NCBI RefSeq assembly: GCF_001282785.1
Contig: NZ_CVUA01000001.1
Location: 1,240,001 to 1,304,000, forward strand
From: Halolamina sediminis
GTDB lineage: Archaea; Halobacteriota; Halobacteria; Halobacteriales; Haloferacaceae
DNA length: 64,000 nucleotides
Reading direction: 5' to 3'
The position numbers were made by a program, and so were the translations under genes. Of this stretch, positions 4,844-36,129 are shown piece by piece. The notes under the pieces are model-generated. The model was not told the origin of the DNA. It ran no database searches and was given only the letters and a program-made list of their open reading frames with translations. Position 1 is the stretch's first letter; each line of letters starts with the position of its first letter.

Positions 4844-6514
4844 TTACTGGTCCATCCAGACGTTCGAGCCTTCCGCCTCGCCGTTGGTGTTGTTCCGCTC
4901 GCCGTACAGGTAGGGGTTGTACGTCGAGACGGGGTGGGTTTTCAGCCCCTTGACGTAGTTCTTCACGCCCATCGAGATGGAGGTGTAGTACAGCGGAAGG
5001 TGGACGCGGTCCTCGACGAAGAGGTTGATCGCCTCGATGTACATCTCGCGGCGCTGCTCGCGGTCGGCGGTGACTCGCGCCTCGGCCAGCAGTTCGTTGA
5101 ACCGATCGTTGTCGTAGTACTGTCCCTGGAACGCGCCGTCGATGTGGAGCAGTTCGTACAGGAAGCGGTCGGGCTCGGGGGCGCGCGTCCAGCCCAGCAG
5201 GTAGATGTTCACCTGGCTGGCGTCGCCGGAGTCGAACCTATCGAGCATCGTCGCGAAGTCGAGGTACTGCACCTGCGCGTCGTAGCCGGCCTCCTGGATC
5301 CCGTTCGCGATCGAGACGGCGACCTGCCGGCGCTTCTCGGTGGAGGAGACGATGATGTTACACGTCCAGTCGTCGGGCACGCCGGCGCTCTCGAACAGCT
5401 CCTGTGCACGGTCGATATCCTTCTCGGCCCAGCTGTTCTCCCACTCCTCGAGGGGCATGTCCCACGCCTCCGCGACGGAGGCGGGCACCGGGCTGTGGAT
5501 CCGGCCCCCGCCCGGCTTGATGTACTGCTCGATGGCCTGGTCGAGGTCGACACAGTGGTCAATCGCCAGCCGGACGTCGCGCTTGGCACACTCCCCCTCG
5601 TTCTGGTTGAACGCGGCGAACTGGTAGCTCAGCGAGGGCCCCTCGATCACGTCCGCGTCGTCCATGTTCTGGACGGTGGTCCAGAACTGGGGCGGGATGC
5701 GGTTGATCACGTCCTGCTCGCCCGTCTGGAGCTGGGTCACGCGGTTGGTGGGCTCGTTGATCGGCGTGAACGTCACCTCGTCGAGGTTGGGGCTGCCGCT
5801 GCCCCAGTAGTCGTCCCAGCCCGCCATGGTGACGTGGTCGTTCTCCGCGAAATCCGTCACTTCGAACGGGCCGGAGCCGACGAACGTGCTGATCCCGAAC
5901 CCTTCGGGGTCCTCCTCACGGACGCTCTTCGGGGCGACCGGGTGCGCGATGGCGTGGAGGATCGGGACGTACGGCTCTGTCAGCGTGAAGTGGGCGGTCT
6001 GGTCGTCCTCGACGTCGATGGATTCGACGATGCTGAAGTTGGAGGCGTAGCTGGTCTGCTCCTCGACGGTCGCCTCGAACGTGTACTTCACGTCCTCCGC
6101 GGTCACGGGGTCCCCGTTGTGGAACGTCGCGTCGGGGTCGAGGTTGAGCGTGAACTCGTTGCCGTCGAGGGTAGGGATTTCTTCGGCGAGGATCGGGACG
6201 AGGTTGGTGTTCCGGTCGTAGCCGAGCACCGGGGAGTACACCAGGTTCTTCAGCATGATGGAGTAGTTCCCGCCGTTGTTGTTGACGGGGTCGAGCTCCA
6301 CCGGCGACGACGTCTGGGCGAAGTTCAGCGAGCCGCCACGCTTCGGCATCGCCGTCTGGGTGTCGGTGTCGCCGTTCCCGGACGAGCCGGAATCCGTGTC
6401 AGTCGGTGTTTCCGTGCCGTCACCGCCAGTACAGCCGGCGAGTCCGATCAGGCCAGCCGATGCCGCGGCCTGGAGGAACTTCCGCCGGTTATCTTGCCAA
6501 TCATTCTCAGGCAT
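4844..6514 (-). CDS. Extracellular solute-binding protein, family 5, Tat lipoprotein (OppA/DppA-like)
   Basis: The 556-residue protein has a twin-arginine signal (NRRKFLQAAASAGLIGLAGC) ending in a lipobox cysteine, then a Thr/Asp/Ser-rich linker and the SBP family 5 fold (LDPDATFHNGDPVTAEDVKYTFEA and FTLTEPYVPILHAIAHP are recognisable). It is exported folded and lipid-anchored, where it captures the substrate for the transporter. I chose the ATG at 6514 rather than the TTG at 6526 because a TATA-like element lies 26 nt upstream of it. Family 5 proteins bind peptides, nickel or other small solutes; the neighbouring hydrolases favour peptides or amides. First gene of the operon. Confidence 0.93.
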   Translation of the reverse strand: MPENDWQDNRRKFLQAAASAGLIGLAGCTGGDGTETPTDTDSGSSGNGDTDTQTAMPKRGGSLNFAQTSSPVELDPVNNNGGNYSIMLKNLVYSPVLGYDRNTNLVPILAEEIPTLDGNEFTLNLDPDATFHNGDPVTAEDVKYTFEATVEEQTSYASNFSIVESIDVEDDQTAHFTLTEPYVPILHAIAHPVAPKSVREEDPEGFGISTFVGSGPFEVTDFAENDHVTMAGWDDYWGSGSPNLDEVTFTPINEPTNRVTQLQTGEQDVINRIPPQFWTTVQNMDDADVIEGPSLSYQFAAFNQNEGECAKRDVRLAIDHCVDLDQAIEQYIKPGGGRIHSPVPASVAEAWDMPLEEWENSWAEKDIDRAQELFESAGVPDDWTCNIIVSSTEKRRQVAVSIANGIQEAGYDAQVQYLDFATMLDRFDSGDASQVNIYLLGWTRAPEPDRFLYELLHIDGAFQGQYYDNDRFNELLAEARVTADREQRREMYIEAINLFVEDRVHLPLYYTSISMGVKNYVKGLKTHPVSTYNPYLYGERNNTNGEAEGSNVWMDQ

Positions 6515-14207: not shown

Positions 14208-14540
14208 ATGCGCGTTCCGGTCCCGAAAAACAAACTCGTCGCCCTCACGCTCGTCGGTGCACTCCTCACAGCTGGCGTCGCCGGGGCCCTTGTCTTGCCC
14301 GGTGGCGGCCTCGTGGAGGTCGGTGAGCACCCCAACTCACCAGATACGACCGCGCCAGACGCCTCACAACAGGCTGTTTCTGATGCGCCCACGCCGAATC
14401 AGGAGTTCACCCCAGCAGTCCAGACACAGTCCGGATTCGAGGAGGAAGATCAGGACGAGTATAAAGAGGACGACGAGGACGAGGAAGAACACGAAGAACA
14501 CGGAGAGGACGACGAGCACGACGAATACGAGGACGAGTGA
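14208..14540 (+). CDS. Small exported acidic protein with Asp/Glu/His-rich tail
   Basis: The 110-residue protein begins with a signal-like or anchor helix (KLVALTLVGALLTAGVAGALVL), continues with a Pro/Thr/Asp-rich linker and ends in about 33 residues that are almost all Asp, Glu, His or Tyr (from GFEEEDQDEY onward). The tail could bind divalent cations outside the cell, which is inference. The start is supported by a GGGGGAG ribosome binding site 6 nt upstream. It overlaps the apbE start (GTGA). I see no canonical flavinylation motif in it. Confidence 0.7.
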   Translation: MRVPVPKNKLVALTLVGALLTAGVAGALVLPGGGLVEVGEHPNSPDTTAPDASQQAVSDAPTPNQEFTPAVQTQSGFEEEDQDEYKEDDEDEEEHEEHGEDDEHDEYEDE

Positions 14541-15415
14541 CCAAGATGATGGGATCGCTCGCATCGGTCTACGAACGGTTCGGGGACTCACACTCCGAGT
14601 TCGAATGTTGTGATACGACGTTTCGGATTCGGGTGACGGGGGTCCGGGCCGGCGCTGCGGTGACTGCGGCTCGGGAAACGGCAGAGTCACTCGAAACGCA
14701 ATTAAACGCCTTCGATGCGGGAAGCGCCGTCAGCCAGCTCAACCGTGACGGGGGAGTCGTGAACGATCACGTCGCGCGTATCGTCCGCCGGGGGCTCGAA
14801 TACAACGACCGGACCGGCGGGGTGTTCGATATCCATCAAGGCGGCGTCGAACACGACCTCAAAGCGTTCCTGCGTGGTGACAGTGACACACCACCGACGG
14901 AGTTCGATACCGGAACTGTCCGAACCAACGAATCGCACGTCATTACCGACGCCCAACTCGATCTCAACGGCCTCGCCAAAGGGTACATCGTCGACCGGGC
15001 CGCCGAGGCACTCGGCGGGGTCGGTCGACGTGGGTTCGTCAGTGGTGGTGGGGATATGTCCCCACCGACGGGCCCGGTCGCCATCGAGAGCCCGTACGGT
15101 GACGACACGCCGCTGAAGGTTCTCGATACGGACTGGTACGTCGCAACATCCGGCGGATACCGACGGTCGCGGAACGGCACCGATCACGTCTACGATCCGA
15201 CCACCGAATCGTTCGGCTCTCGTCACGAGTCCGTTACCGTCGTGGCGCGCCGAGACTGCATGGAAGCCGACGCGTTGGCGACGACGCTTGCGGCGCTTTC
15301 ACTTTCCGAAGCACGCGAGTTAGCTTCGGAATGGGAGGGGCTGGAGGCACTCGTCGTCCACGGTGGTGTCTTTCATACGACGGAAGGGTTCGATACACAT
15401 GTCTTGGACAGATAG
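14537..15415 (+). CDS. apbE: FAD:protein FMN transferase, ApbE family
   Basis: The protein has 292 residues. ApbE hallmarks are present: LETQLNAFDAGSAVSQLNR near the N-terminus, DLNGLAKGYIVDRAAEAL, FVSGGGDM, and the C-terminal DALATTLAALS. ApbE transfers FMN from FAD to a Thr/Ser of extracytoplasmic redox proteins in a magnesium-dependent reaction. There is no obvious signal peptide, which is unusual if it acts outside the cell. GTG at 14537 overlaps the preceding stop; ATGs at 14546 and 14549 are alternatives. It overlaps the next gene by 17 bp, so the operon is tightly packed. Confidence 0.9.
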   Translation: MTKMMGSLASVYERFGDSHSEFECCDTTFRIRVTGVRAGAAVTAARETAESLETQLNAFDAGSAVSQLNRDGGVVNDHVARIVRRGLEYNDRTGGVFDIHQGGVEHDLKAFLRGDSDTPPTEFDTGTVRTNESHVITDAQLDLNGLAKGYIVDRAAEALGGVGRRGFVSGGGDMSPPTGPVAIESPYGDDTPLKVLDTDWYVATSGGYRRSRNGTDHVYDPTTESFGSRHESVTVVARRDCMEADALATTLAALSLSEARELASEWEGLEALVVHGGVFHTTEGFDTHVLDR

Positions 15416-18288: not shown

Positions 18289-20889
18289 TCAGGCCATTCG
18301 TGTGAGCACGCGCTCCCGAACCACGAGCAGACACGGAAGTACCGTCACGCACGCAATGAAAGCGTAGACGATACTCAAGCCTGTGACGATGCCAAAGCGT
18401 TGGAGCGGGGGTGACAGCGCCAGTGCGAGCACCCCAAAGCCCGCCGCAGTCGTCACCGCACTTCCGAGTAACGCACCACCAGTTCCCTCAAGTGCTGTCC
18501 CCAGCGTTTCGGCGAGCGAATCGTGGCGAGCGCGTTCATCGACGAACCGCTCACTGACGTGAATGCTGTAATCCACGCCGAGACCAATGGCTAAACTCGT
18601 GATCACGACGGTCTCGCTGTTGAATGGGATATCGAGCACGGACATGGTGCCGAGCAACCACGCGAGCGCGATTAGGACGGGTGCGAGCGTCACGATACCC
18701 AGCCCCGGTGCATGGTACCGCCACCAGTACATACTGATAAGAAGGGCAAGGATGACCCCTAAGGTGATAGCGAATCCTTCGACGAGCGTTTCGAACAGAG
18801 CACTCTGGACGACAGCAGTGATGACCGGACCACCCGTTGCAGTAGCTCGTACTGGGGCGTCCTGTTCAATGGTTGAGGAGATGTCTCGTACGTCCCTTGC
18901 GACCGACTGAGCCGAGGCGTCTCCCTGCACGCCGACAGTTAGCCGGGCAGATTCGTATGACCCGTTCTCGGCACGATAGAGAACCGACGATGCATGTTCG
19001 GGAGCAACATTGAACATCAGGTCATAGACTGCCGCGACGTCTCTGTCTGGGAGGCCATCACCATCCGTGTCACGGGCTGCGATTGCATCCGCAACCGTTT
19101 GATTCTCCGAAGCGACAGCTCGAAGGACAGATGTTGGACTTTCGATAGCTGCTCTTCCATCGGAACCGATGACGACTGTCCCGCTGCTCTTAGTATTGCG
19201 GACCACATCGTCGGTCGCGGTAAGGAGTGCTGGCGCGGTCACGTTCCCACGTATCAATATTTGACCTTCTGATCCCTCTCCACGTTGGCGGAAATTGTCG
19301 CTGAGGTATGCAAGATTCTCACTCACCTCATACTCACCGGGTGCGAACGGTTCCGGGAGGGAATCCATCCACGACGGCGCATCCTGCGGGATGAAATCGG
19401 CTTGGTTGAACTCGGTGTCGATACTGGTCGCGCCGTACGCCCCTGCGGAGGCGAGGACTAACGAAAGAACAATGACGACGATTGGGGCTCGCCGGGCAAG
19501 CGTCGCAGTACCCGAAAGAACACGGTTCAGCCGCCCCGAACCGACGCCGACGGCGGGGGTATGCCGGTTGCGGCCACGGCGGTCAAAGAACCGTTCGAGT
19601 TCGAGTTTGACGGCTGGTACAAGCGCGGCGAAAACAACGAAGATGGCGACGATTCCCACACCGCTCAGGATGGCGAAATCCTGAATCGAGCCCAGCGGAC
19701 TGACGTAGTTCGAAAGGAACCCGACAGCGGTCGAGAACGCGGCGGTAGCCAGAGCGAGAACGACTCCAGCGATTCCGAGACGCATCGCTGTCGCGGGATC
19801 TCGCCGACCGACGTTCTCATCGTCGGTGTCGAGCGCTCCCTCTCGAGCTTCGCGGTAGCGCATGACGACATGGAGCGAGTAATCGATACTCAGGCCGATA
19901 AGCAAGAACGGAACGGCGATCAGGGTCGAATTCGACGGAATCCCGAGCCACCCCTGTATGCCAGCGTACCACACCAGCACGACGGCCACGCCGAATATGC
20001 TCACGAGAACGTCAATGAGGTCCCGGTAGGCAATCGTAAGGACGGTGAGCAAGAGAACGATTGCGACGGGCGTGATGATGATGAACGTGTCGCCGATGGC
20101 CTGCGAGGATTCCGCATCGATGAGACCCTGCCCGAACACGAACGCGTCGTCGAAGCGATTCTCGACGAGAGAGCTGATGACCAGCTGTGCATCGTTCACC
20201 GATTCGGTGGTTGTAGTCGAACTGCTCGGACTCTGTTGAAAGACGAGAGTCGTTCTCGCGTCTGCACTCGTCGTCCCTGGTTCGAAATCCGTCGGTAGAA
20301 ATTGAGTTGGCTCGTTGCCGGGAACAGACGTGTCTGGGTCAAGGATTCGGCTGAGATACGTTTCCACTTCCTCGTCGGTGCTGGATTCAAGTGCTGTGAT
20401 CTGCTGGTCAAGTGTCGGTGCTGACGACTGACCCTGTCTTGCCATCGACGTATTGTTTCCAGAATCATTGCCGGTAGCTGACGAACCGCTACTCTGTTGG
20501 TGTGAGTACGCAACGTTTGCAACGATATTCTCAATGCCGACCATCCCCGTTCCGTCACGAAGTGTCGCATTGAACGATTCGTTTTCTCGGAGCTCCTGCT
20601 GAAGACGTAGACTTTTAAGTAATGATTCGCGGGTGAGAACGTTATCTCCTTCGTCCCTGATCACGACCTGTGCAACAACTGCATCGTCCGTCTCGTACGT
20701 CGCTTCGATACGGTCAAGCGCCGCCTGTTCCGGAGAATTGATTCCGGCTTGGCCAATCTGGCCTTCCGCAGTGGTGCCTACAATCGCGCCAGCACCAATG
20801 ACGGCACTGATGACGAGCAACAGTACAATAACCAACCTGCTCCGCGATGCGACGAAATCTGCGTACTCAGAAGTAAGGCTTCGCTTCAT
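18289..20889 (-). CDS. RND/MMPL-family exporter
   Basis: The protein has 866 residues in the twofold RND arrangement: TM1 near residue 20, a large extracytoplasmic loop (about 40-255, Ser/Thr/Asn-rich), five helices, then a second TM-loop-five-TM unit from about residue 470. The motifs LIGLSIDYSLHVVMRYREAREG and AIGLGVDYSIHVSERFVDERAR are the paired MMPL/SSD signatures with membrane Asp residues that conduct protons. It likely exports lipids or hydrophobic compounds. It lies downstream of the regulator and small membrane protein, 194 nt away, and is transposon cargo. Confidence 0.88.
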   Translation of the reverse strand: MKRSLTSEYADFVASRSRLVIVLLLVISAVIGAGAIVGTTAEGQIGQAGINSPEQAALDRIEATYETDDAVVAQVVIRDEGDNVLTRESLLKSLRLQQELRENESFNATLRDGTGMVGIENIVANVAYSHQQSSGSSATGNDSGNNTSMARQGQSSAPTLDQQITALESSTDEEVETYLSRILDPDTSVPGNEPTQFLPTDFEPGTTSADARTTLVFQQSPSSSTTTTESVNDAQLVISSLVENRFDDAFVFGQGLIDAESSQAIGDTFIIITPVAIVLLLTVLTIAYRDLIDVLVSIFGVAVVLVWYAGIQGWLGIPSNSTLIAVPFLLIGLSIDYSLHVVMRYREAREGALDTDDENVGRRDPATAMRLGIAGVVLALATAAFSTAVGFLSNYVSPLGSIQDFAILSGVGIVAIFVVFAALVPAVKLELERFFDRRGRNRHTPAVGVGSGRLNRVLSGTATLARRAPIVVIVLSLVLASAGAYGATSIDTEFNQADFIPQDAPSWMDSLPEPFAPGEYEVSENLAYLSDNFRQRGEGSEGQILIRGNVTAPALLTATDDVVRNTKSSGTVVIGSDGRAAIESPTSVLRAVASENQTVADAIAARDTDGDGLPDRDVAAVYDLMFNVAPEHASSVLYRAENGSYESARLTVGVQGDASAQSVARDVRDISSTIEQDAPVRATATGGPVITAVVQSALFETLVEGFAITLGVILALLISMYWWRYHAPGLGIVTLAPVLIALAWLLGTMSVLDIPFNSETVVITSLAIGLGVDYSIHVSERFVDERARHDSLAETLGTALEGTGGALLGSAVTTAAGFGVLALALSPPLQRFGIVTGLSIVYAFIACVTVLPCLLVVRERVLTRMA

Positions 20890-22665: not shown

Positions 22666-24375
22666 ATGACTGTTGCGGAGGGCATCGTTGTTCACGCAGA
22701 GACGCTCTGTGAGCGTGAAGACCACCTCTGGGACGTCATCAAAAGGCTCTCGATTCCCGTTAGCGAACTTGAGGACGCACGCGACCAGAACCGCGTCACC
22801 TACGGAACCGACGAGATGTTTCGTGCGCTGCTGTTTATGGGGGTCCGCGGCATCTCCCAGAACAAACTCGCGGCTAGATTAGGACAGAGTCCGGCCTTGA
22901 CAAAGAGTTTCCAATTCGACATTACTGATCTCTCCAACACTCCCACCCAACAAGACCTCTCGTACACGCACGGGAAGTTCAGCGAGGACACGCAAGAGGT
23001 TCTCAACAGGACGGTTGCGGGCGTGCGACAGGCTGCACTCGACCATGGCGTGATTACAGAGGGACTGGTTCCGACCGGTCCAACTGGACTCGAGAAGGAG
23101 AACTCGAAGAGCGAGAACGAGTACAAGAAGGAGAAAGCCCAGAAGACGCTGACGCTCGCTCGAAAGCACGTCCTTCCCGAGTTCGACACACACCGAGCGG
23201 CCCACAAGATCTACTCCGACGAAGTGATACTCGACATGTTCGCACGAATCTGTGCAAACAAGGGGAGTGCTCATTCTGAATCGGAGTACGGTTGGCTCAC
23301 AGACGACGACCTCATCTGCGACGACTCGACGTTCCTGCGTGCGATTAAGAAGATAGCGACACCCGACAATTCGGACAGCCAACTCACCTTCGAGGATGAC
23401 GATTCGATGCTGGAAATCGACCGGATTAGAGACTCTATCATGACGGCGTTCGACGCCGCGACGGACAACATCATCAACTCGATTCGCGGAGAGAACCCTT
23501 TCAGCGCTCGTGAGACGATTGCAGCTATCGACATCACACACGAGCAGTTCCACGTCTGGCCGTGGGAAGACAAGGAATCAGGCGTCGCCAAGCCAGATTA
23601 TCCGAAGATGGTGAGCGGGTACAAGAAAGACGGCGAGTACAAGCGAGGGTACAAGTACGCGACCATCACGCTGGTCGGAGACCATGCACCGATTGTCCTC
23701 GGTATCGAGCCGGTCAAAGAGGATTCCGAGTGGGAGCCTGACGGTTCCCCGTCGTACTCGAAAGCCGACCTGGTGAGCCGACTACTGGACCGTGCCGAGC
23801 GGTTCGTCGATTTGGACACGGTAATGTTCGACCGAGGATTCTACGTGAATCAGGTGTACGCAGACGTTCATGACCGAGACCTGACGTACCTCTCGCCAGT
23901 TCCGACGTACGAGGATGACTTGGCGGCGATTCAGGATATTCAGGAGCATCCGACGGCGGATGCAGCTGTCAAACACGATGTGCCGCTGGGAATCGACGGC
24001 GAGATTCATCACGAAGCGGAGTTCCTCTACGCGCCGAGTACGAGCGACGATGCTAATGGGAAGTACGCGGTGTTCGTGACGAACCATGACCACGTGGAAC
24101 CTGAGGAGATTTCGAGTGTTGTGAACGGGTACAGTCGGCGGTGGGACATCGAGAACCAGTACAAGTCGATCAAGAACTTCATGCCGAAGACATCGTCGAC
24201 GGACTATCGACTTCGGTTCAGTAACTTCGCGTTGTCAACGCTGATCTACAACTTGTGGCGGCTGACGGATTATCTGATCAAGGTTGCGCTCGACGAGCCG
24301 ATTCGGTCACCGCCCGTGATCACGGCGAAGACGTTCGTACGGGCGTTAGGTGACTTCCTCCGAAAGTTTGGGTAA
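22666..24375 (+). CDS. DDE transposase (IS4-like, haloarchaeal)
   Basis: The intact 569-residue transposase has the catalytic triad in its usual settings: AAIDITHEQ (first Asp), VMFDRGFYVNQVY (second Asp) and RRWDIENQYKSIKNFMPKTSS (Glu). The C-terminal half is homologous to the broken transposase it sits within. It ends 197 nt from the right end of the 6.5-kb element, so it probably mobilises it. The exact IS family was not assigned. Confidence 0.9.
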   Translation: MTVAEGIVVHAETLCEREDHLWDVIKRLSIPVSELEDARDQNRVTYGTDEMFRALLFMGVRGISQNKLAARLGQSPALTKSFQFDITDLSNTPTQQDLSYTHGKFSEDTQEVLNRTVAGVRQAALDHGVITEGLVPTGPTGLEKENSKSENEYKKEKAQKTLTLARKHVLPEFDTHRAAHKIYSDEVILDMFARICANKGSAHSESEYGWLTDDDLICDDSTFLRAIKKIATPDNSDSQLTFEDDDSMLEIDRIRDSIMTAFDAATDNIINSIRGENPFSARETIAAIDITHEQFHVWPWEDKESGVAKPDYPKMVSGYKKDGEYKRGYKYATITLVGDHAPIVLGIEPVKEDSEWEPDGSPSYSKADLVSRLLDRAERFVDLDTVMFDRGFYVNQVYADVHDRDLTYLSPVPTYEDDLAAIQDIQEHPTADAAVKHDVPLGIDGEIHHEAEFLYAPSTSDDANGKYAVFVTNHDHVEPEEISSVVNGYSRRWDIENQYKSIKNFMPKTSSTDYRLRFSNFALSTLIYNLWRLTDYLIKVALDEPIRSPPVITAKTFVRALGDFLRKFG

Positions 24376-27370: not shown

Positions 27371-27544
27371 TATCAATCTTTCCCCCTCATCTCACGGTAG
27401 AGTAGGTCGCCTCAAACCAAGCAACTCTTCAGCCACAATTTTCCATCTGCCAACTATACGGCTTAAAACTAATTCACTCGGATATATAGTGGATCTTATT
27501 ATGCCTTTGGGAGTGGCCTTTCCAGTTAGACGAAGAGTTTAATG

Positions 27545-27564
27545 CCTACCGAACGTTTAGTCAG
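27545..27564. promoter_or_regulatory. TetR-type palindromic operator, site 2
   Basis: CCTACCGAACGTTTAGTCAG lies between the TATA-like GTTTAATG (27537-27544) and the ATG at 27569, where a bound repressor would block initiation of the zinc-ribbon and tetR operon. Confidence 0.65.
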
Positions 27565-27568
27565 TAGT

Positions 27569-28024
27569 ATGGGACAAGTCTCGCTCAGAAACAATCCACT
27601 ACTTGCTGCACTCCTGGGAACAGTAGTCACCGGACTTGGCCACTTCTACCTCCGCCGCTGGCTGAGAGCGCTTGGATGGCTAGGACTCACCGTAGCTGCT
27701 TCAGTTCTGTTCGTCCCCGAGTCAACGATATCCGCGCTTAGTTCGGGTACGCTAACCGATCCATTCTCGATTCCATTCTCGATAGTCCTGATCAGTGCCG
27801 CTAGTGCCCTTGACGCGTATCTCATCGCGAAAGTTAGAAGACAAACCGAAAGATTCCAAGCAAACAATACTGTCGGGTCAGCAGGGGCTGAAGAATCTCC
27901 AGCCTGTCCTGCCTGCGGAAAACCGGTCGATCCCGATCTCGGATTCTGTCACTGGTGTACAACCGAATTCAACGTTGTCGACGTCTCCAAACTAGAACGG
28001 ATCGACGAGAATCAATCGAACTGA
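27569..28024 (+). CDS. Membrane protein with C-terminal zinc ribbon
   Basis: The 151-residue protein has an N-terminal hydrophobic region with about three helices (LLAALLGTVVTGLGHFYLRRW onward) and a C-terminal double-CxxC ribbon, CPACGKPVDPDLGFCHWCTTEF. I chose the ATG at 27569 because the earlier in-frame ATG at 27542 lies inside the TATA-like element. It is followed 2 nt later by a tetR gene, making a probable autoregulated pair with operator site 2. Confidence 0.72.
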   Translation: MGQVSLRNNPLLAALLGTVVTGLGHFYLRRWLRALGWLGLTVAASVLFVPESTISALSSGTLTDPFSIPFSIVLISAASALDAYLIAKVRRQTERFQANNTVGSAGAEESPACPACGKPVDPDLGFCHWCTTEFNVVDVSKLERIDENQSN

Positions 28025-28026
28025 CA

Positions 28027-28635
28027 ATGACTTCTGATTCACCCAAACAGCACTGGAGCACCGGCGAAGAAGAGATTATGGAAGCCACCTATCGAGCACT
28101 ACTCAAGCACGGTTACGCCGACCTGTCGATCTCCCGAATCGCCGACGAACTCGATAAATCGAAGGCTGCTATCTACTACCATTACGACACGAAAGACGAC
28201 CTTCTGGTCGCGTTTCTCGAGTTCGCCGTCGATAGATTCGAAGAGACGATCGAGACAGAGACAGGCGAGGAACCGCCAGAAGATCTTGAACACGTCATTG
28301 AGAAGCTCCTCCCGCTTCAGCCCGACGAGGAGCAACGCCAGCTCCAAGCGGTGCTAGTCGGCCTCCGTTCCCAGGCCGTGACGAACGGGGTATTTCGTGA
28401 GCAATTCACCCAGATCGATGAACGACTGGCGGCCACCGTCCGGAGCATCGTCGAACGCGGCATCGACGACGGCACTTTCCGTGATGTCGATCCGTCGCGG
28501 GTCGCAGAGCATATCCTAGCGACGATCAACGGCGCGAGGTACGGTCGCGTGACGACAGACCGCAAAAGCGCCGTGGCGGCAGCACGCGTCTCGCTGGCCT
28601 CGTATATTGACTCGGAACTGAGGCGTCGCTCATGA
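28027..28635 (+). CDS. TetR/AcrR-family transcriptional regulator
   Basis: The 202-residue protein has the TetR N-terminal domain (residues 14-62: IMEATYRALLKHGYADLSISRIADELDKSKAAIYYHYDTKDDLLVAFL) and a helical ligand domain. It follows the zinc-ribbon gene by 2 nt; a longer frame from 27955 runs over that gene and is rejected. Candidate targets are the palindromes at 27351 and 27545. Confidence 0.88.
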   Translation: MTSDSPKQHWSTGEEEIMEATYRALLKHGYADLSISRIADELDKSKAAIYYHYDTKDDLLVAFLEFAVDRFEETIETETGEEPPEDLEHVIEKLLPLQPDEEQRQLQAVLVGLRSQAVTNGVFREQFTQIDERLAATVRSIVERGIDDGTFRDVDPSRVAEHILATINGARYGRVTTDRKSAVAAARVSLASYIDSELRRRS

Positions 28636-29314: not shown

Positions 29315-29334
29315 CTGACTAATTAGTTAGTAAG
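29315..29334. promoter_or_regulatory. TetR-type palindromic operator, site 3
   Basis: CTGACTAATTAGTTAGTAAG overlaps the expected core promoter position of the small gene starting at 29361 and is nearly identical to site 4 at 30858-30877. Confidence 0.65.
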
Positions 29335-29360: not shown

Positions 29361-29609
29361 ATGAGTGAGTCACAAAGATCGCTGAGAAATACGGTACAGG
29401 CGTGGAACCAAGACGGTGGTCTCTATGTCGTCCTTGGCTTGATCGCGGCGATACTCTCGCTCGTGTTTATTCCCTTGTTTGGCCTCCTCGCCATGTATTG
29501 CGGGTACAAGCTATACGATACTCAACAGAAAACAGTACTGTCTATCCTGATGGCCGGGCTCGGCGGATTTGGGTTTCTGTTCTGGGTCTACTTCCTCACT
29601 ACAGTATAA
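29361..29609 (+). CDS. Small two-helix membrane protein
   Basis: The 82-residue protein has two hydrophobic helices (GLYVVLGLIAAILSLVFIPLFGLLAMYCGYKLY and VLSILMAGLGGFGFLFWVYFL). The ATG at 29361 is preferred over a GTG at 29334, which lies inside the operator. No homologue is recognised. The TetR-type operator directly upstream suggests it is part of the same stress or efflux regulon as the MATE operon. Confidence 0.6.
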   Translation: MSESQRSLRNTVQAWNQDGGLYVVLGLIAAILSLVFIPLFGLLAMYCGYKLYDTQQKTVLSILMAGLGGFGFLFWVYFLTTV

Positions 29610-30102: not shown

Positions 30103-30720
30103 CTATGGATCTCCGCTTCCGCCTGTGTCAGCTCTGAGGACGGCGTTCACGTATTCGTCCGCGGTTCGTCTGGCCGTTGCGAGGGTTTCAGTCTCGTCCA
30201 GAACGACTGCTCGAGTGCGCCCCCCGTCGACGATGGTCATAAGTGCCCGTGCTACGTGTTCGGAGTCCACGTCAGTGAATGTGTCTTCACTGATGCCGTG
30301 ATCAATCACGGTCCTGAGCAGGTACTGGACGTACTCGTCGTTCTGCTGGAATCGGTCGGCGAACGCTTCCTTGTACGGCGCTTGACTCCGCATCTCCAGC
30401 ATTGCGATCAACAAGTCGTGGTGGTCCTCCGGAGCAACGAGCAGCTTGTCGAGTAGAAGTTCCAATCGCTGTTCGGGAGCTGTTGTCTGAACCTCATGGA
30501 TCGTCTCGCCGAATTGGTCAAGGACATAGTCCAGAAACGCGACGAGGAGATCATCTTTTGTGTCGTAGTGGTAATGAACGGCAGCGGTCGATTTCCCGTA
30601 CTCCTCGGCAATACGTTTGATCGTGAGATCTGCGTATCCGTGGTCGCGAAGCGCACGATAGGTCGCACGCATAATCTCCTCGTCAGGATCTGACGAAGTC
30701 CGATCCGGCGGGTCGGCCAT
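30103..30720 (-). CDS. TetR/AcrR-family transcriptional regulator
   Basis: The 205-residue protein has a TetR N-terminal domain (IMRATYRALRDHGYADLTIKRIAEEYGKSTAAVHYHYDTKDDLLVAFL) very similar to the other two regulators here. It is divergent from the third tetR gene, 172 nt away. I see none of the 20-bp palindromes immediately upstream of it, so it may not be autoregulated by that site. Confidence 0.87.
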   Translation of the reverse strand: MADPPDRTSSDPDEEIMRATYRALRDHGYADLTIKRIAEEYGKSTAAVHYHYDTKDDLLVAFLDYVLDQFGETIHEVQTTAPEQRLELLLDKLLVAPEDHHDLLIAMLEMRSQAPYKEAFADRFQQNDEYVQYLLRTVIDHGISEDTFTDVDSEHVARALMTIVDGGRTRAVVLDETETLATARRTADEYVNAVLRADTGGSGDP

Positions 30721-30857: not shown

Positions 30858-30877
30858 TTGACTAATCGGTTAGTAAG
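30858..30877. promoter_or_regulatory. TetR-type palindromic operator, site 4
   Basis: TTGACTAATCGGTTAGTAAG contains the near-perfect palindrome ACTAATCGGTTAGT. It spans the position (about 27 nt upstream) where the TATA element of the tetR-MATE operon should be, so binding would repress the operon. Confidence 0.7.
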
Positions 30878-30892
30878 TAGGATATCGACTAC

Positions 30893-31492
30893 ATGGCAGA
30901 CGACCCAGCCACCGAGATCCTGGACGCCACGTACCGTGCCCTCTGCGAGCATGGGTACGCGAATCTTACACTCCAGGATATCGCTGCCGAAGCAGACGCC
31001 AGCAAGTCGTCCATCCACTACCACTACGATTCAAAAGACCAGTTGTTCGTCACCTTCCTCGACGACCTGTACGAGCGATTTACCGACCGAGTGGACTCTC
31101 CCGAGGGAAATACGCCCAACGAACAGCTTGAAGAGCTCCTTCAGGTTCTACTGACTACCGACGCTGAGCCGCCTCTGAGAGAGTTCCGAACCGCAATGCT
31201 CGAACTGAAGGCGCAGGCCCCGTACAATTCGACTCTACAGGAACGTCTCACCGACTTCGATGAGTTCCTGATCGAACAATTGCGAGAAATACTCGCGGCT
31301 GGCATGGACGACGGTGAGTTCGACGACGACATCGAGCCAGCCCGCGACGCAGAATTCCTCGCAACGACAATCACCGGCGCACAGACTCGCCATGTCACAA
31401 TCAACCAGTCCTCTGACCAACTCTACGATACGATGACCAAATACATCGAGCGACATCTACTCGCCGACGAGCAACCGGAGGCTGGACGGTAA
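30893..31492 (+). CDS. TetR/AcrR-family regulator of the MATE operon
   Basis: The 199-residue protein has the TetR DNA-binding domain at residues 6-53 (ILDATYRALCEHGYANLTLQDIAAEADASKSSIHYHYDSKDQLFVTFL). Its stop overlaps the MATE start (TAATG), and operator site 4 covers its promoter, the classic layout of an autoregulated repressor-exporter operon. Confidence 0.88.
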   Translation: MADDPATEILDATYRALCEHGYANLTLQDIAAEADASKSSIHYHYDSKDQLFVTFLDDLYERFTDRVDSPEGNTPNEQLEELLQVLLTTDAEPPLREFRTAMLELKAQAPYNSTLQERLTDFDEFLIEQLREILAAGMDDGEFDDDIEPARDAEFLATTITGAQTRHVTINQSSDQLYDTMTKYIERHLLADEQPEAGR

Positions 31493-32991
31493 TGGGGTTG
31501 TTCAGCCGTATTGGTTCGCTGTTCAAGGGCCCAGAAGAGTTCGACCTCACATCGGGTGGCATCGCGAAACCACTGTTTTTTCTCTCGATGCCGATCGTCG
31601 TCACGAACCTCTTCCAGACCGCGTACAATCTGGCGGACACGTTTTGGCTGGGCCAGTACAGCACCGATGCACTAGCGGCGATCAGTTTTGCGTTCCCGAT
31701 GGTGTTCCTGCTTATCTCACTGGGAATGGGGATTTCAGTCGCAGGAAGCGTCCTCGTCGCCCAGTTCACGGGCGCTGACGAGGAGCGGGAAGCCGAGTAC
31801 GCGGCGTCTCAAACCGTGACCTTCGCAGTCATCGCGTCGGTGATTCTCGGCGCCATCGGATACTTCGCCATCGAAGACTTCCTCGCAGTAATGGGCGCGT
31901 CACAGGACGTCCTGCCGCTAGCGACGAGTTACATGGAGGTCATCTCACTGGGGCTGCTGTTTATGTTCGGTTTCGCGGTGTTCATCGCGTTAATGCGAGG
32001 GTACGGTGATACCATCACCCCGATGCTGGTGATGTTCGGGTCGGTCGTCCTGAATATCGTCATCGACCCATTCCTAATCTTCGGGTTCGAGAACAACCCC
32101 GTTTTCGGGATATTCGGGCTTGGTAGTCTCGAATCCACGCTATTCGCCGTAACCGGCTACACGGGTTCCGGTATTACTGGTGCGGCACTTGCAACTGTCT
32201 TTTCCCGCGGGCTCGCGCTGGTCGTCGGCCTTGCAGTCATGTTCCGAGGGACACGCGGCGTCCAGATCCACATCCGTGATATGGTTCCGAACCTCTCCTA
32301 TCTGCGACGCCTCGTCCGGATCGGGTTACCTGCTTCGATCGAGGGGATGGGCCGAGCGCTGTCGATGAACCTGCTGCTGTTCATTGTCGCGTTGTTCCCG
32401 GACGCGGTCGTCGCTGCTTACGGTATCGGCACGCGGGTCTTCTCGGTTATTTTCCTCCCCGCCATCGCGGTTGCTCGGGGAGTGGAGACAATGACCGGCC
32501 AAAATATGGGTGCGGACAAGCCGGACCGTGTCGAAAAAGCGGCGGGGCTGGCGTCGAAAGTGCTCTTCACCGTCCTCACGGTCGCGGGGGTCGTTGTCTT
32601 CTTCGTCGCGGCACCCATCGCCGACGTGTTCACGACCGACCCCGAGGTCGTCGATATCGCCGCTCAGTTCCTTCGCTACGTCGCGTTGACCTTCGGGTTC
32701 ATCGGGATTATGCGAGCCTATACGGGCAGTTTCCGCGGTGCCGGCAAGACGCTCACCGCGGCGGCGATCTCCGTGCTGATGCTCGGGATTATCCGGTTCC
32801 CGATTGCATGGATCGCCTCTGGACCACTCGGTGAGCGCGGAATCTGGCTGTCGTTCGCGATTTCGAACGTCGTTGGAGCGATCATCGCCTATGTATGGTA
32901 CCGGCGCGGCACGTGGCGCGAGAGTGACTTGACCGAATCCAAAGTCGACCTCGACGAGACCAGTGTCGAGACAGCAGCAGGTGATGACTGA
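31492..32991 (+). CDS. MATE-family multidrug/sodium (or proton) antiporter
   Basis: The 499-residue protein has twelve predicted helices in two homologous halves. The family N-terminal motif LFFLSMPIVVTNLFQTAYNLADTFWLGQ and the second-half LVRIGLPASIEGMGRALSMNLL are clear, with MTGQNMGADKPDR typical of the family. It exports drugs or metabolites. It is translationally coupled to its tetR gene and leads into three further genes with gaps of 5-16 nt. Confidence 0.92.
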   Translation: MGLFSRIGSLFKGPEEFDLTSGGIAKPLFFLSMPIVVTNLFQTAYNLADTFWLGQYSTDALAAISFAFPMVFLLISLGMGISVAGSVLVAQFTGADEEREAEYAASQTVTFAVIASVILGAIGYFAIEDFLAVMGASQDVLPLATSYMEVISLGLLFMFGFAVFIALMRGYGDTITPMLVMFGSVVLNIVIDPFLIFGFENNPVFGIFGLGSLESTLFAVTGYTGSGITGAALATVFSRGLALVVGLAVMFRGTRGVQIHIRDMVPNLSYLRRLVRIGLPASIEGMGRALSMNLLLFIVALFPDAVVAAYGIGTRVFSVIFLPAIAVARGVETMTGQNMGADKPDRVEKAAGLASKVLFTVLTVAGVVVFFVAAPIADVFTTDPEVVDIAAQFLRYVALTFGFIGIMRAYTGSFRGAGKTLTAAAISVLMLGIIRFPIAWIASGPLGERGIWLSFAISNVVGAIIAYVWYRRGTWRESDLTESKVDLDETSVETAAGDD

Positions 32992-32996
32992 AACCG

Positions 32997-33794
32997 ATGA
33001 CTGACACAGAGCCTGTCCACCCCTCACAGATCGAGCGCCACTTTGAACAGGTGCTCAGCACCGGGGACGAGGCCAATCTCCCGCTCGTTCACGATGTACT
33101 TGACGATAGCCCCGACAGATGGTACGGACAGTTGGTGGTGACCGTATACGATTCATTGTCAGACCACCAGGACCGTGAGGATGTCCTTTCTTACGCCGCC
33201 GCGGTCGAATTACTCCGGGGATACGTTCGTCTCCGAAATCGGCTACTCCTCACTCTCACTGATAAACACGCGCATTCGCTTACGCTGGATCCGACAGCAG
33301 CACTGCTGGCCGGGGATTACCTGTATACAGCGGCATTTTCGTCACTCCGTTCAAGACCCGACTCTTCGTCGAGCGACTGTTTCGAGATACTGACAACAAT
33401 CCTCGAAACCGTCACGGAGGCATTTGCGCGCACCTACACCGCGGCCGGATCCACAGATCACGACCAAGCGAAATTTCTCGATGACACTGCGGGGAGTCTC
33501 GGTGAAGGTGCGGCGGCCCTTGGAGCGGCGCTGGCTGGTGTCGACGAACCGGTTCGCCGACACTGCGAACGACTCGGTCGCGGGCTCAGTACCGCCCGAC
33601 AGATCAACTACGTGCTCGATACGAATCCAACTGAGGCGATGATTGTCCCGCCCACGTTCGACGAGTCACAATTTCGTAGGTATGCAGAACAGCGGCAAGA
33701 TGACGCTGCTCAGGCTCTCGACACCCTGTCAGAGACTGTCAACGTAACGCGTCTGCAAGCGTTCGCCGATGTGACTGTAACGGGACACGACTAA
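32997..33794 (+). CDS. Prenyl-diphosphate-synthase-like protein without Asp-rich motifs
   Basis: The 265-residue protein keeps fold markers of trans-prenyl synthases: AALLAGDYLYTAAFSSL after the position of the first Asp-rich motif, a FLDDTAGSLGEGAAALGAALAG segment, and RHCERLGRGLSTARQINYVLD where active enzymes read QI-DDxLD. The first DDxxD is absent and the second reads NYVLD, so catalysis is doubtful. A regulatory, lipid-binding or partner role is possible. It starts 5 nt after the MATE gene. Confidence 0.55.
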   Translation: MTDTEPVHPSQIERHFEQVLSTGDEANLPLVHDVLDDSPDRWYGQLVVTVYDSLSDHQDREDVLSYAAAVELLRGYVRLRNRLLLTLTDKHAHSLTLDPTAALLAGDYLYTAAFSSLRSRPDSSSSDCFEILTTILETVTEAFARTYTAAGSTDHDQAKFLDDTAGSLGEGAAALGAALAGVDEPVRRHCERLGRGLSTARQINYVLDTNPTEAMIVPPTFDESQFRRYAEQRQDDAAQALDTLSETVNVTRLQAFADVTVTGHD

Positions 33795-33810
33795 CAGAGC
33801 TCAGCCACTA

Positions 33811-34230
33811 ATGACGACGCACTCGATTAACGTCCCGGACGCCTGGCAGATTCACACTGCAAACGGACGATACGAGGAGACGATGTTCGAGTTCCAATTC
33901 GAGAGCCCTGCGTCTACTGCCCTGTCTGTACGACTCGTAGGGCAGAGTAGTACTGAGCACGATGCCATCTATACTATTACCGTCGTCATTGACGATGGAG
34001 AAGAACACTCAATGATTGCTGGCGAGTGTACGTCAGAAGCGGAGGCGATGAAGACGACCGAGGAGTTACTGCGCTCCCTCCAGCGGTCATTCCGCGCTGA
34101 GGCTCGGACTCTTGACGAACTCGACGCCGAAACGTTAGAAGCGATAGTCGGTCGATATCGGTACGGCACACTCAGATATCGAATCCGAGCGACCCTTGAT
34201 TCGTTCCAGAACTTACGGGAAAATGATTAA
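33811..34230 (+). CDS. Uncharacterised soluble protein, MATE operon
   Basis: The 139-residue protein begins with an Ig-like or beta-rich half (SINVPDAWQIHTANGRYEETMFEFQFES), then EAMKTTEELLRSLQRSF and a charged helical C-terminus. No TM segment, signal or catalytic motif is visible. It lies 16 nt after the prenyl-synthase-like gene and 9 nt before the TFIIB-like gene, so it is part of the operon. Confidence 0.6.
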   Translation: MTTHSINVPDAWQIHTANGRYEETMFEFQFESPASTALSVRLVGQSSTEHDAIYTITVVIDDGEEHSMIAGECTSEAEAMKTTEELLRSLQRSFRAEARTLDELDAETLEAIVGRYRYGTLRYRIRATLDSFQNLREND

Positions 34231-34239
34231 ACCTAGAAG

Positions 34240-35094
34240 ATGACCACGAAATTTGAAGGCGCCGTCCTCGAAAACTTAGCGTCAATCCAACAGGCCCTCA
34301 ATCTGGAAGCGAACATTCAGCAGTATGGTGAACTACTGGTTTCAGAACTCACGACACGAGAACTGCAGATCCGATTCCCAGCCCGTACTGCCGCAGCATG
34401 CTACCTCATTGCGTGCCGCTTGCAAGAGGTTCCGATTCGTGTGACCAGAATTGCTGAAACCTCTACTGCTACTAAATCAGAAATCCTCAATGAAATGCAA
34501 CGGGTCTCAGACGCATTGGATCTCGGGATCCCGAATGACGATCCAACTGTGATCCTCGAAGAGGCGTGTGAGGACCTTTCGCTCTCCGCCGACATCCAAG
34601 CTCGCGCACAACAGGTAGCACAATTGGGTGTCGAAGCCGGAGTCACCAGTGGCGTCTCCCCATATTCGTATGCAGCAGCTGTGCTCTACATCGCTAGTTC
34701 AGCTGCCGAACCCGACCTCTCTCAGGCTGACATCGCCGAACAATTCGGCGTATCTACAGCCTCCCTCCGAGAGAGACGTGACGACTTGCTCGAAGCAACC
34801 GGGAGCCACCTATTCGAACTTCAATATCCGACAGCACCGCCCGAAGCCACATGGTTGGTTGACAACCTACTCTCCTACGCACGGACTGCACAATGGGCAA
34901 AGGGCAAGCGTCATATGGGTGTTCTCGCTGGAGCGTGGTTGTACGCAGTGAACAGGCATCATGTCGATGCCAACGTGGCGGAACTCGCAGATATAACCGG
35001 TGTGAGTAAGTCGACCATTCGTGCCCGCTATCGAGATCTCATCGAGCACGTTGGAACTGCTGATACCGGCCTAGATAGTAGGGATAGTGTTTGA
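34240..35094 (+). CDS. TFIIB-like protein with three cyclin-like repeats, no zinc ribbon
   Basis: The 284-residue protein resembles the core of archaeal TFB. Cyclin-like repeats appear at about residues 20-95 (ARTAAACYLIACRLQEVPIRVTRIAE), 105-190 (SPYSYAAAVLYIASSAAEPDLSQADIAEQFGVSTASLRERRDDL) and 205-275 (GVLAGAWLYAVNRHHVDANVAELADITGVSKSTIRARYRDL). The N-terminal zinc ribbon and B-reader needed to recruit polymerase are missing. It could bind promoters or TBP without activating, as an anti-factor or regulator. It closes the tetR-MATE operon. Confidence 0.68.
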   Translation: MTTKFEGAVLENLASIQQALNLEANIQQYGELLVSELTTRELQIRFPARTAAACYLIACRLQEVPIRVTRIAETSTATKSEILNEMQRVSDALDLGIPNDDPTVILEEACEDLSLSADIQARAQQVAQLGVEAGVTSGVSPYSYAAAVLYIASSAAEPDLSQADIAEQFGVSTASLRERRDDLLEATGSHLFELQYPTAPPEATWLVDNLLSYARTAQWAKGKRHMGVLAGAWLYAVNRHHVDANVAELADITGVSKSTIRARYRDLIEHVGTADTGLDSRDSV

Positions 35095-35201: not shown

Positions 35202-35936
35202 ATGTACACAATCGCTGACCTGCCCATCGAGAACACCCTCCAGACTGTCAAATACGACCTCGGGCTCGAATCGGCTCTCCGTCAGATGTTCGAGAACAGC
35301 TACACCCAGATCGGTGTCGAACGTGACGGTGAGTTAGTCGGGATTGTCACCTACAGGTCCGTGGTCCGGACCCTCCTTGCATTCCAGCGGCTGGAGGTCG
35401 GGCACAAAACGCTCGATAAGATCTCGGTCGGAGCGGCCGTCGAAGATGCACACACCATCAGTGAAGACGAGAACCTTCTCGCCGTATTCAATGCACTCGC
35501 AGAATACACGTACATCGTGGTCGATCGAGACGACGAGTGGCGGATTCTAACCGACTACGACCTCCTGACACGACTGAAACAGATGCTTGAGCCGTTTCTG
35601 TTGATCGAGTCCATCGAGATGCAGTTGCGCGAGATTTTCACGCGAGTGTTCGGTGATGCGCTGTCGGAGCAGCTAGCCGAAACGTTCGACGAGGAACACC
35701 CACTACCAACGCCAGCGTCGATCGAGCATTGCAGTTACGCACACTATGCCCAATTCATCTCGATTCATTGGGGGGAATTTGAGTCGCTCTTTGATGATCA
35801 ACAGGACGTGATCCGCGAGTTAGTGCTTGAAATCGGGGATATGCGAAATCAGCTCTTCCACTTTCGAGTCGACGACCCGGACGAATTTGACCGAGATTTG
35901 CTTCGCTTCGGTCAGTCGTACTTTTCCTCCGTGTAA
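35202..35936 (+). CDS. CBS-domain protein fused to a HEPN-like domain
   Basis: The 244-residue protein has two CBS motifs at about residues 1-130 (YTQIGVERDGELVGIVTYRSVVRTLL and YTYIVVDRDDEWRILTDYDLLTRL), which usually bind adenine nucleotides. The C-terminal domain (about 150-244) ends in IGDMRNQLFHFR, an RNxxxH motif (R-x4-H) typical of HEPN ribonucleases and of Swt1-like domains. A nucleotide-gated RNase or toxin-like function is inferred. A TATA-like CATAGTTAGC lies about 30 nt upstream. It is not adjacent to an obvious antitoxin. Confidence 0.65.
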   Translation: MYTIADLPIENTLQTVKYDLGLESALRQMFENSYTQIGVERDGELVGIVTYRSVVRTLLAFQRLEVGHKTLDKISVGAAVEDAHTISEDENLLAVFNALAEYTYIVVDRDDEWRILTDYDLLTRLKQMLEPFLLIESIEMQLREIFTRVFGDALSEQLAETFDEEHPLPTPASIEHCSYAHYAQFISIHWGEFESLFDDQQDVIRELVLEIGDMRNQLFHFRVDDPDEFDRDLLRFGQSYFSSV

Positions 35937-36129
35937 CTTCTGAGTTCGTGCGCTGGGGGGTCATGAGTATCATACGGCTTGACGGCAAATCGAGCAACTG
36001 GCTTGGGCTCTATGCATTGAGAGAGCCAGTCTCAACTACTGTACCGCGTCGCGTGCCGATCCAGTACGTGCTCCGAAGGGAACGATTAGCCAACCGAGAC
36101 GCTACCCGCCCCAGGGAAGGGGAACCAGG

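Follow-up and report, generated by a model that had tools for sequence, protein, structure and literature searches.

A recurrent haloarchaeal TetR–MATE module with a predicted prenyl-synthase-fold pseudoenzyme and a rare three-repeat TFB-like protein

It is classic for a TetR-family gene to adjoin an efflux gene whose promoter carries a palindromic operator, and repression and induction by TetR proteins are ordinary for the family. Two haloarchaeal pumps of the MATE family export Hoechst dye in E. coli, and MATE-996 and MATE-2898 are haloarchaeal MATEs of Halorubrum amylolyticum (PMC11721430). The five-gene operon considered here lies in a stretch of 64,000 nucleotides from Halolamina sediminis (contig NZ_CVUA01000001.1, positions 1,240,001 to 1,304,000; hereafter the window). 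Like MATE-996 and MATE-2898 it is haloarchaeal, and like TetR-regulated MATE multidrug efflux operons in general it combines a MATE transporter (P2) with a TetR regulator (P1) and a palindromic operator. It differs from them in that its control region serves two TetR genes, an apparent pseudoenzyme with a prenyl-synthase fold (P3) and, rarely, a protein that resembles transcription factor B (TFB; P5).

The two additional proteins have partial counterparts elsewhere. In plants, small subunit I (SSU I) lacks both the first and the second aspartate-rich motif (FARM and SARM) and, once bound to the large subunit, shifts the product specificity (PMC9863795). P3 shares its fold and the loss of both motifs with the small subunits of plant geranyl and geranylgeranyl diphosphate synthases (GPPS and GGPPS; SSU I, 3qkc, 3oab) and with OsGRP (5xn6), but it is archaeal, is at most about 20% identical to the plant proteins, and is encoded in an efflux operon. 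In Sulfolobus, the UV-induced TFB3 is truncated: the zinc ribbon is retained, but neither the B-finger nor the DNA-binding helix-turn-helix (HTH) is present (PMC2246294). P5 is like TFB3 in being a TFB paralogue stripped of functional domains and thought to modulate initiation, but it represents the opposite half of the molecule, plus an extra repeat.

The core of the locus is an ordinary efflux system, and its two unusual proteins, P3 and P5, occur in a real conserved module. The interpretation that we favor, with somewhat less than even confidence, regards the locus as a mobile copy of a TetR efflux regulon conserved in haloarchaea, in which P3 would be a non-catalytic prenyl-synthase partner and P5 a TFB core blind to the polymerase; the mechanisms proposed for both proteins are what we infer. 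The five reading frames run rightward and are tightly packed, as the preliminary description of the window had it, with an overlap of 1 nt between TetR and MATE and later gaps of 5, 16 and 9 nt (Table 1). Comparison of the window with Halorubrum, Halopenitus and Natrinema gives dN/dS of about 0.2–0.35 for P3, P4 and P5; this purifying selection indicates that all three are genes and not chance frames. The identity of P2 is secure, with 207.7 bits against PF01554 (cut-off 24.9) over two MatE stretches and 247.9 bits against TIGR00797 (cut-off 147.4).

Table 1. Positions in the window of the operon and of the features associated with it
Feature	Coordinates	Strand	Description	Basis or remarks
Z	27542..28024	+	DUF7575 zinc-ribbon membrane protein	PF24460 7e-14
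Second operator copy	29316..29334	+	TGACTAATTAGTTAGTAAG	
S	29361..29609	+	Small hydrophobic protein, probably with two transmembrane segments	Downstream of second operator
TetR-B	30103..30720	-	Divergent TetR regulator, in the same place in most modules	PF13977 6e-19; PF00440 1e-9; synteny
Operator (putative)	30859..30877	+	TGACTAATCGGTTAGTAAG	Beside TTTTGA box; ends 15 nt before P1 ATG
P1	30893..31492	+	TetR-family regulator, operon gene 1	PF00440 6.4e-14; BetI-type C-terminal domain PF13977 5e-11
P2	31492..32991	+	MATE-family efflux transporter, 499 aa	PF01554 1e-61; TIGR00797
P3	32997..33794	+	Trans-prenyl-diphosphate-synthase fold without FARM/SARM, apparent pseudoenzyme, 265 aa	Pfam, alignments, predicted structure
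P4	33811..34230	+	139 aa, matches no known family; erosion or deletion recurs in relatives	
P5	34240..35094	+	TFB-core-like, 284 aa, three TFIIB/cyclin repeats, no zinc ribbon or B-reader	Pfam, AlphaFold2, Foldseek

TetR–MATE–P3 is a recurrent haloarchaeal module and is not unique to the window. A P3 profile run over 391 Halobacteria genomes at a threshold of 1e-10 matched 72 of them, with about 50 clear family members; the remaining weak matches are probably ordinary prenyl synthases. In 29 of the 37 P3 loci read, MATE lies immediately upstream of P3, and most MATE–P3 loci also contain the divergent TetR pair and an adjacent gene for a DUF7575 zinc-ribbon membrane protein. Module order and tight spacing are kept across many genera. 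The preliminary description had regarded an exporter joined to a lipid-enzyme-like protein and a partial general transcription factor as an unfamiliar combination; this does not hold for TetR–MATE–P3 and stands only for the P4–P5 extension, which is rare. The distribution of the modules suggests layers, TetR–TetR–MATE first, then P3, then P4, then P5.

The control region also ties these genes together. The divergent intergenic regions of 28 modules have CTTTTGACTAACNNGTTAGTAAGT in common, close upstream of the P1 start, and the palindromic operator TGACTRAYNRGTYAGTAAG is perfect in 24 of them and present in all 28 when up to two mismatches are allowed (dinucleotide shuffles, 0). The pattern was derived from these same 28 regions, so that its recurrences elsewhere are the fair independent tests. 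It recurs before S (at 29361), before DUF7575 genes, 21 bp upstream of a stand-alone P3 (locus L090), and in front of a P4 relative in genome G189 that is divergent from a TetR gene. Homologs of S with the operator occur in Halorubrum and elsewhere, and homologs of Z flank TetR-B in most modules; in the window, Z adjoins another TetR gene (27955–28635). Because the operator recurs before them, P3, P4, S, Z and MATE are linked by a control region independently of gene order, and to judge from sequence they look like one TetR regulon. At the unlinked copies of P5 the operator was not found. The host genome has five sites for the longer operator pattern at three or fewer mismatches (control, 0), two of them within the window; a further two share one place, one on each strand, in front of a paralogous TetR–MATE pair. 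This pair is on the host chromosome (genome G000, 1726412–1728515), and its MATE, 66% identical, has the same operator. A further match with three mismatches, at genome position 1861041, was not counted, the downstream gene being unconvincing. A TetR HTH (PF00440) and a palindromic operator at the promoter, the two marks of a predicted TetR repressor, are both present, and the operator is a putative site for P1 and/or TetR-B. The preliminary description was sound on the pseudoenzyme, the partial TFB and their linkage, and it overlooked the divergent TetR gene, the shared operator and the wider regulon.

Detection of P3 by Pfam is marginal, with polyprenyl_synt (PF00348) matching at 4e-5 and 23.3 bits, below the gathering cut-off of 27. 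The positions of its motifs were taken from an alignment of 34 family sequences together with a PDB profile alignment that includes 1wy0. The site of the first aspartate-rich motif (DDxxD or DDxxxxD) corresponds to residues 81–85, where none of the 34 members has aspartate at 81 or 82; residue 81 is replaced by Ser, Gly, Glu or Asn and residue 82 by Arg or Glu. The site of the second corresponds to residues 204–208, which read NYVLD in the window protein, and DDxxD is absent from every member. The loss of both motifs, first noticed in the one protein, is therefore a property of the family. Other positions are strictly kept: Glu71, Arg80, Leu103, Leu104, Asp107, Gly166, Gly169 and Gly194 are invariant in the 34 sequences, and LLAGD-type segments are conserved. 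AlphaFold2, run on the family alignment, returns an all-helical prenyl-synthase fold (pTM 0.89). The best Foldseek matches, with E down to 3e-7 and TM-scores up to 0.77, include active synthases and non-catalytic GPPS small subunits (3qkc, TMt 0.71; 3oab_C, TMt 0.76), and OsGRP (5xn6) is also among them. P3 is a conserved pseudoenzyme family that its sequence predicts to be catalytically dead. Possible partners exist in the host, which has two other PF00348 loci over the cut-off (218 and 190 bits); the two host prenyl synthases lie at genome positions 2052290–2053009 and 204594–205250. Databases routinely annotate the P3–MATE pair as “polyprenyl synthetase” beside “MATE family efflux transporter”, and with this label a protein tied to efflux would wrongly be counted as a lipid enzyme.

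Expansion of the TFB family in haloarchaea is well known, and P5 departs from the usual architecture in two ways. It resembles the core of archaeal TFB and TFIIB (1d3u, 1ais) in its two cyclin repeats of TFIIB type, but it has no zinc ribbon, B-reader or linker and contains an extra third TFIIB repeat. The Pfam TFIIB repeat matches in three stretches (4e-27), and each third of the protein taken alone matches PF00382 above the cut-off, at 27.4, 47.8 and 28.4 bits. Residues 9–186, the two N-terminal cyclin repeats, align with 1d3u/1ais at 5e-21, and the third repeat spans residues ~200–272; against the NCBIfam TFB model P5 reaches 92 bits, where the cut-off is 384. The AlphaFold2 model (mean pLDDT 86.6) has 14 helices, which we read as three cyclin repeats. 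Neither a zinc ribbon nor a B-reader is present in the 10 family members, 9 of which start at cyclin repeat 1; the L140 protein has a short N-terminal extension without cysteines, and the upstream extension at L068 likewise has none. The three repeats and the missing N-terminal elements had been noticed in the window protein, and the separate matches of the thirds and the family alignment bear them out; prediction also yielded the folds first suggested for P3 and P5.

In a profile scan of 97 genomes, other TFBs match at approximately residues 9–200, mostly ending near 190, with E-values of ~1e-20 to 1e-25, whereas relatives of P5 score 1e-160 and, among the best ~150 matches, full-length ones come only from the window genome and G122. 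Among the same best ~150 matches, no other TFB of the 97 genomes has the three-repeat architecture. A three-repeat TFB-like protein without a ribbon appears to be undescribed, as we found no paper on one. Repeats 2 and 3 each have an invariant arginine just after the HTH turn (Arg177 and Arg261), and these residues may be equivalent to the arginine of TFIIB that contacts the B recognition element. P5 was also considered as a viral or phage gene, a possibility set aside when no match was found in phages or in viral contigs, and P3–P5 as a defense system, for which PADLOC gave no match worth keeping; P5 does match mad1, but over no more than 21 residues, which belong to an HTH.

The favored interpretation can be put as a sequence of events. 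One or both TetR proteins would occupy the operator as long as no toxic hydrophobic compound is sensed; their release would induce the MATE transporter, which would pump the compound out. P3, made at the same time, might act by analogy with the plant small subunits as a non-catalytic subunit that pairs with, or titrates, the active prenyl-diphosphate synthases of the cell, and such pairing could change the supply of membrane lipid or carotenoid derived from geranylgeranyl diphosphate (GGPP). Where P5 is present, a protein lacking the ribbon and reader that recruit polymerase could bind promoter DNA, perhaps with TATA-binding protein (TBP), and, while the response lasts, block TFB-dependent initiation at target promoters or re-select it. 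P4 may be a further partner. The arrangement suggests a coupling of drug export to membrane-lipid and promoter control. We think it unlikely that the scheme holds in its entirety, as a drug-responsive program in which one TetR operator joins MATE export, isoprenoid rerouting by P3 and, in some lineages, promoter reprogramming by P5 as a dominant-negative factor or selector acting on the general transcription machinery. Because its genes share an operator, the regulon as a whole could be tested in a haloarchaeon amenable to genetics, and with P5 one can ask directly whether core-only TFBs serve archaea as repressors or selectors.

Several observations weigh against this interpretation. P3 occurs without MATE in 8 of the 37 loci, 4 of which keep TetR-B. 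The MATE subfamily is far commoner than P3 (257 of 382 genomes at 1e-150), one or both genes of the TetR pair are retained with those of its copies that lack P3, and many genomes have the same TetR–MATE pair and no P3, so MATE does not need P3. The MATE tree indicates gene exchange inside the module. Plant small subunits have two CxxxC interaction motifs, but the window P3 has none, only two isolated cysteines. Foldseek finds TFIIB cores for P5 with TM-scores of just 0.3–0.5, a consequence of a different or uncertain arrangement of the repeats relative to one another. Finally, P4 and P5 have been lost repeatedly, and P5 stands alone in four loci that have no operator.

The first two of these observations also count against the best of the alternatives, that P3 is a ligand-binding or sensing protein: its prenyl pocket, now empty, would take up the hydrophobic substrate or an isoprenoid signal, which P3 hands to MATE or reports to TetR while lipid synthesis is left untouched. 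The trans-prenyl-synthase fold does have a long hydrophobic cavity that could serve in this way, and P3 is strictly coupled to the efflux operon and, even when it stands alone, to the operator. With MATE missing from a fraction of P3 loci and P3 so often missing beside MATE of the same subfamily, we consider a sensing role possible but rather doubtful.

P5 might instead be an activator-type TFB variant that, rather than blocking initiation, obtains its ribbon in trans from a full-length TFB and guides polymerase to promoters of its own choice, that of its operon among them. Split TFB variants do exist, as Sulfolobus TFB3 shows (PMC2246294), and P5 would supply the other half. Its second and third repeats have conserved HTH helices, with Arg177 and Arg261 invariant. 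Yet the cassette encodes no ribbon-only protein, and a conserved TetR operator is already in place at the operon promoter and is present to the same extent in modules without P5. Activation by P5 therefore seems to us unlikely.

P4 and P5 form a rare accessory cassette, P4 being found in 9 of 382 genomes and P5 in 9 of 391. P4 has no match in Pfam, NCBIfam or PADLOC, and PHROG gives a single weak match, whose function is unknown. The full five-gene order is present in the window, in Halorubrum sp. GN11 and in Halopenitus malekzadehii, so that the order first seen in one genome is conserved elsewhere in haloarchaea. Natrinema hispanicum has lost most of P4, and in G122 P3 is split by an insertion. 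This insert (locus L064, 9176–11094) is ~1.1 kb long with a 283-aa frame, and MATE, P4 and P5 remain. Of the 12 P5 loci, 8 have P5 adjoining the module, and two orientations occur: P5 lies downstream in the window and in L055, L056, L060 and L064, and it is convergent with P3 in Natrinema zhouii and Natrinema SYSU A 869. An eroded P4 but no module accompanies P5 in Natrinema versiforme and two relatives, and the company of this P4 indicates that P5 came from a P4–P5 arrangement. An apparent P4 remnant in Halobacterium is significant alone (score 46 against a shuffle maximum of 27), and those in L008, L009, L014 and L012 are suggestive by position. Similarity after P3 in the relatives cannot be taken purely as P4 remnant, part of it belonging to P3 itself, whose reading frame is longer at the 3′ end.

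The host genome is a single contig of 2.84 Mb, and the operon lies near the right end of a low-GC island (~14–36 kb) with a GC content of 0.52–0.61, compared with 0.65–0.71 in the flanks. DNA homology to the Halorubrum copies stops at 36041–36042, the same point as the GC rise, and no tRNA in the window marks an island end. From TetR-B through P3 the DNA is 97% identical to contigs of Halorubrum, a different genus, which argues that this block has moved between genera. The low GC of the island would fit P4 and P5, and perhaps P3, being passengers of a mobile island, kept by hitch-hiking and decaying; the erosion or deletion of P4 in several relatives, the broken P3 of G122 and the truncated P3 of L124 are consistent with the same idea. 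But dN/dS of 0.2–0.35 argues for function in all three, the P3 family is conserved in dozens of chromosomes, and P5 lies beside P3 in two independent arrangements, which makes passenger status quite improbable. Least probable, and very much so, is that P3 is an active enzyme of different chemistry, such as a metal-independent transferase or lyase: the invariant Glu71, Arg80 and Asp107 could form a new active site, but residues 81 and 82 are not uniformly substituted, and we know of no chemistry of the prenyl-synthase fold that works without the aspartate-rich motifs.

Other observations concern the neighborhood of the module. In Natrinema zhouii and Natrinema SYSU A 869, plasmids carry lonB ahead of P5, and P5 in turn is arranged tail-to-tail with the P3 gene of a module that is complete or almost so; G169 has a similar order beside TetR genes, where the 717-aa frame before P5 is likely lonB. 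LonB controls the turnover of phytoene synthase in Haloferax (PMC9263693), and its presence here is a weak pointer to isoprenoid metabolism, to be treated as a lead only. An LLM-class flavin oxidoreductase gene, together with lonB, adjoins P5/P3 on the Natrinema plasmids L138 and L139, and frames resembling LLM oxidoreductases also adjoin the MATE-less P3 loci L084 and L085. At L092, a frame recognized by eye as squalene/phytoene-synthase-like (4918–5985) lies ~1.6 kb from P3, a possible isoprenoid link.

Some genomes have more than one module. Halorubrum sp. GN11_10-6_MGM has two copies (L008 and L010), one with P4–P5 and one without. The second copy in a Haloarchaeobius genome (G235; L124, 6512–8413) has P3 cut after 50 codons, followed by a duplicated C-terminal fragment of MATE. 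An attempt to identify the window MATE with MATE-2898 by docking residue numbers was dropped, as residues 72, 75, 76 and 79 agree and 300, 304 and 308 differ.

The island (14000–36040) also contains an MMPL exporter (18289–20889), a DDE transposase (22666–24375) and an ApbE protein (14537–15415), and several of its blocks are common to Haloarchaeobius sp. FL176. Directly 3′ of P5 is a gene for a CBS-domain protein with a weak HEPN-like C-terminus (35202–35936, + strand). It matches the NCBIfam model DS11, “CBS domain-containing anti-phage protein”, at 1.9e-22, below the cut-off, and accompanies the module in Halorubrum and Haloarchaeobius.

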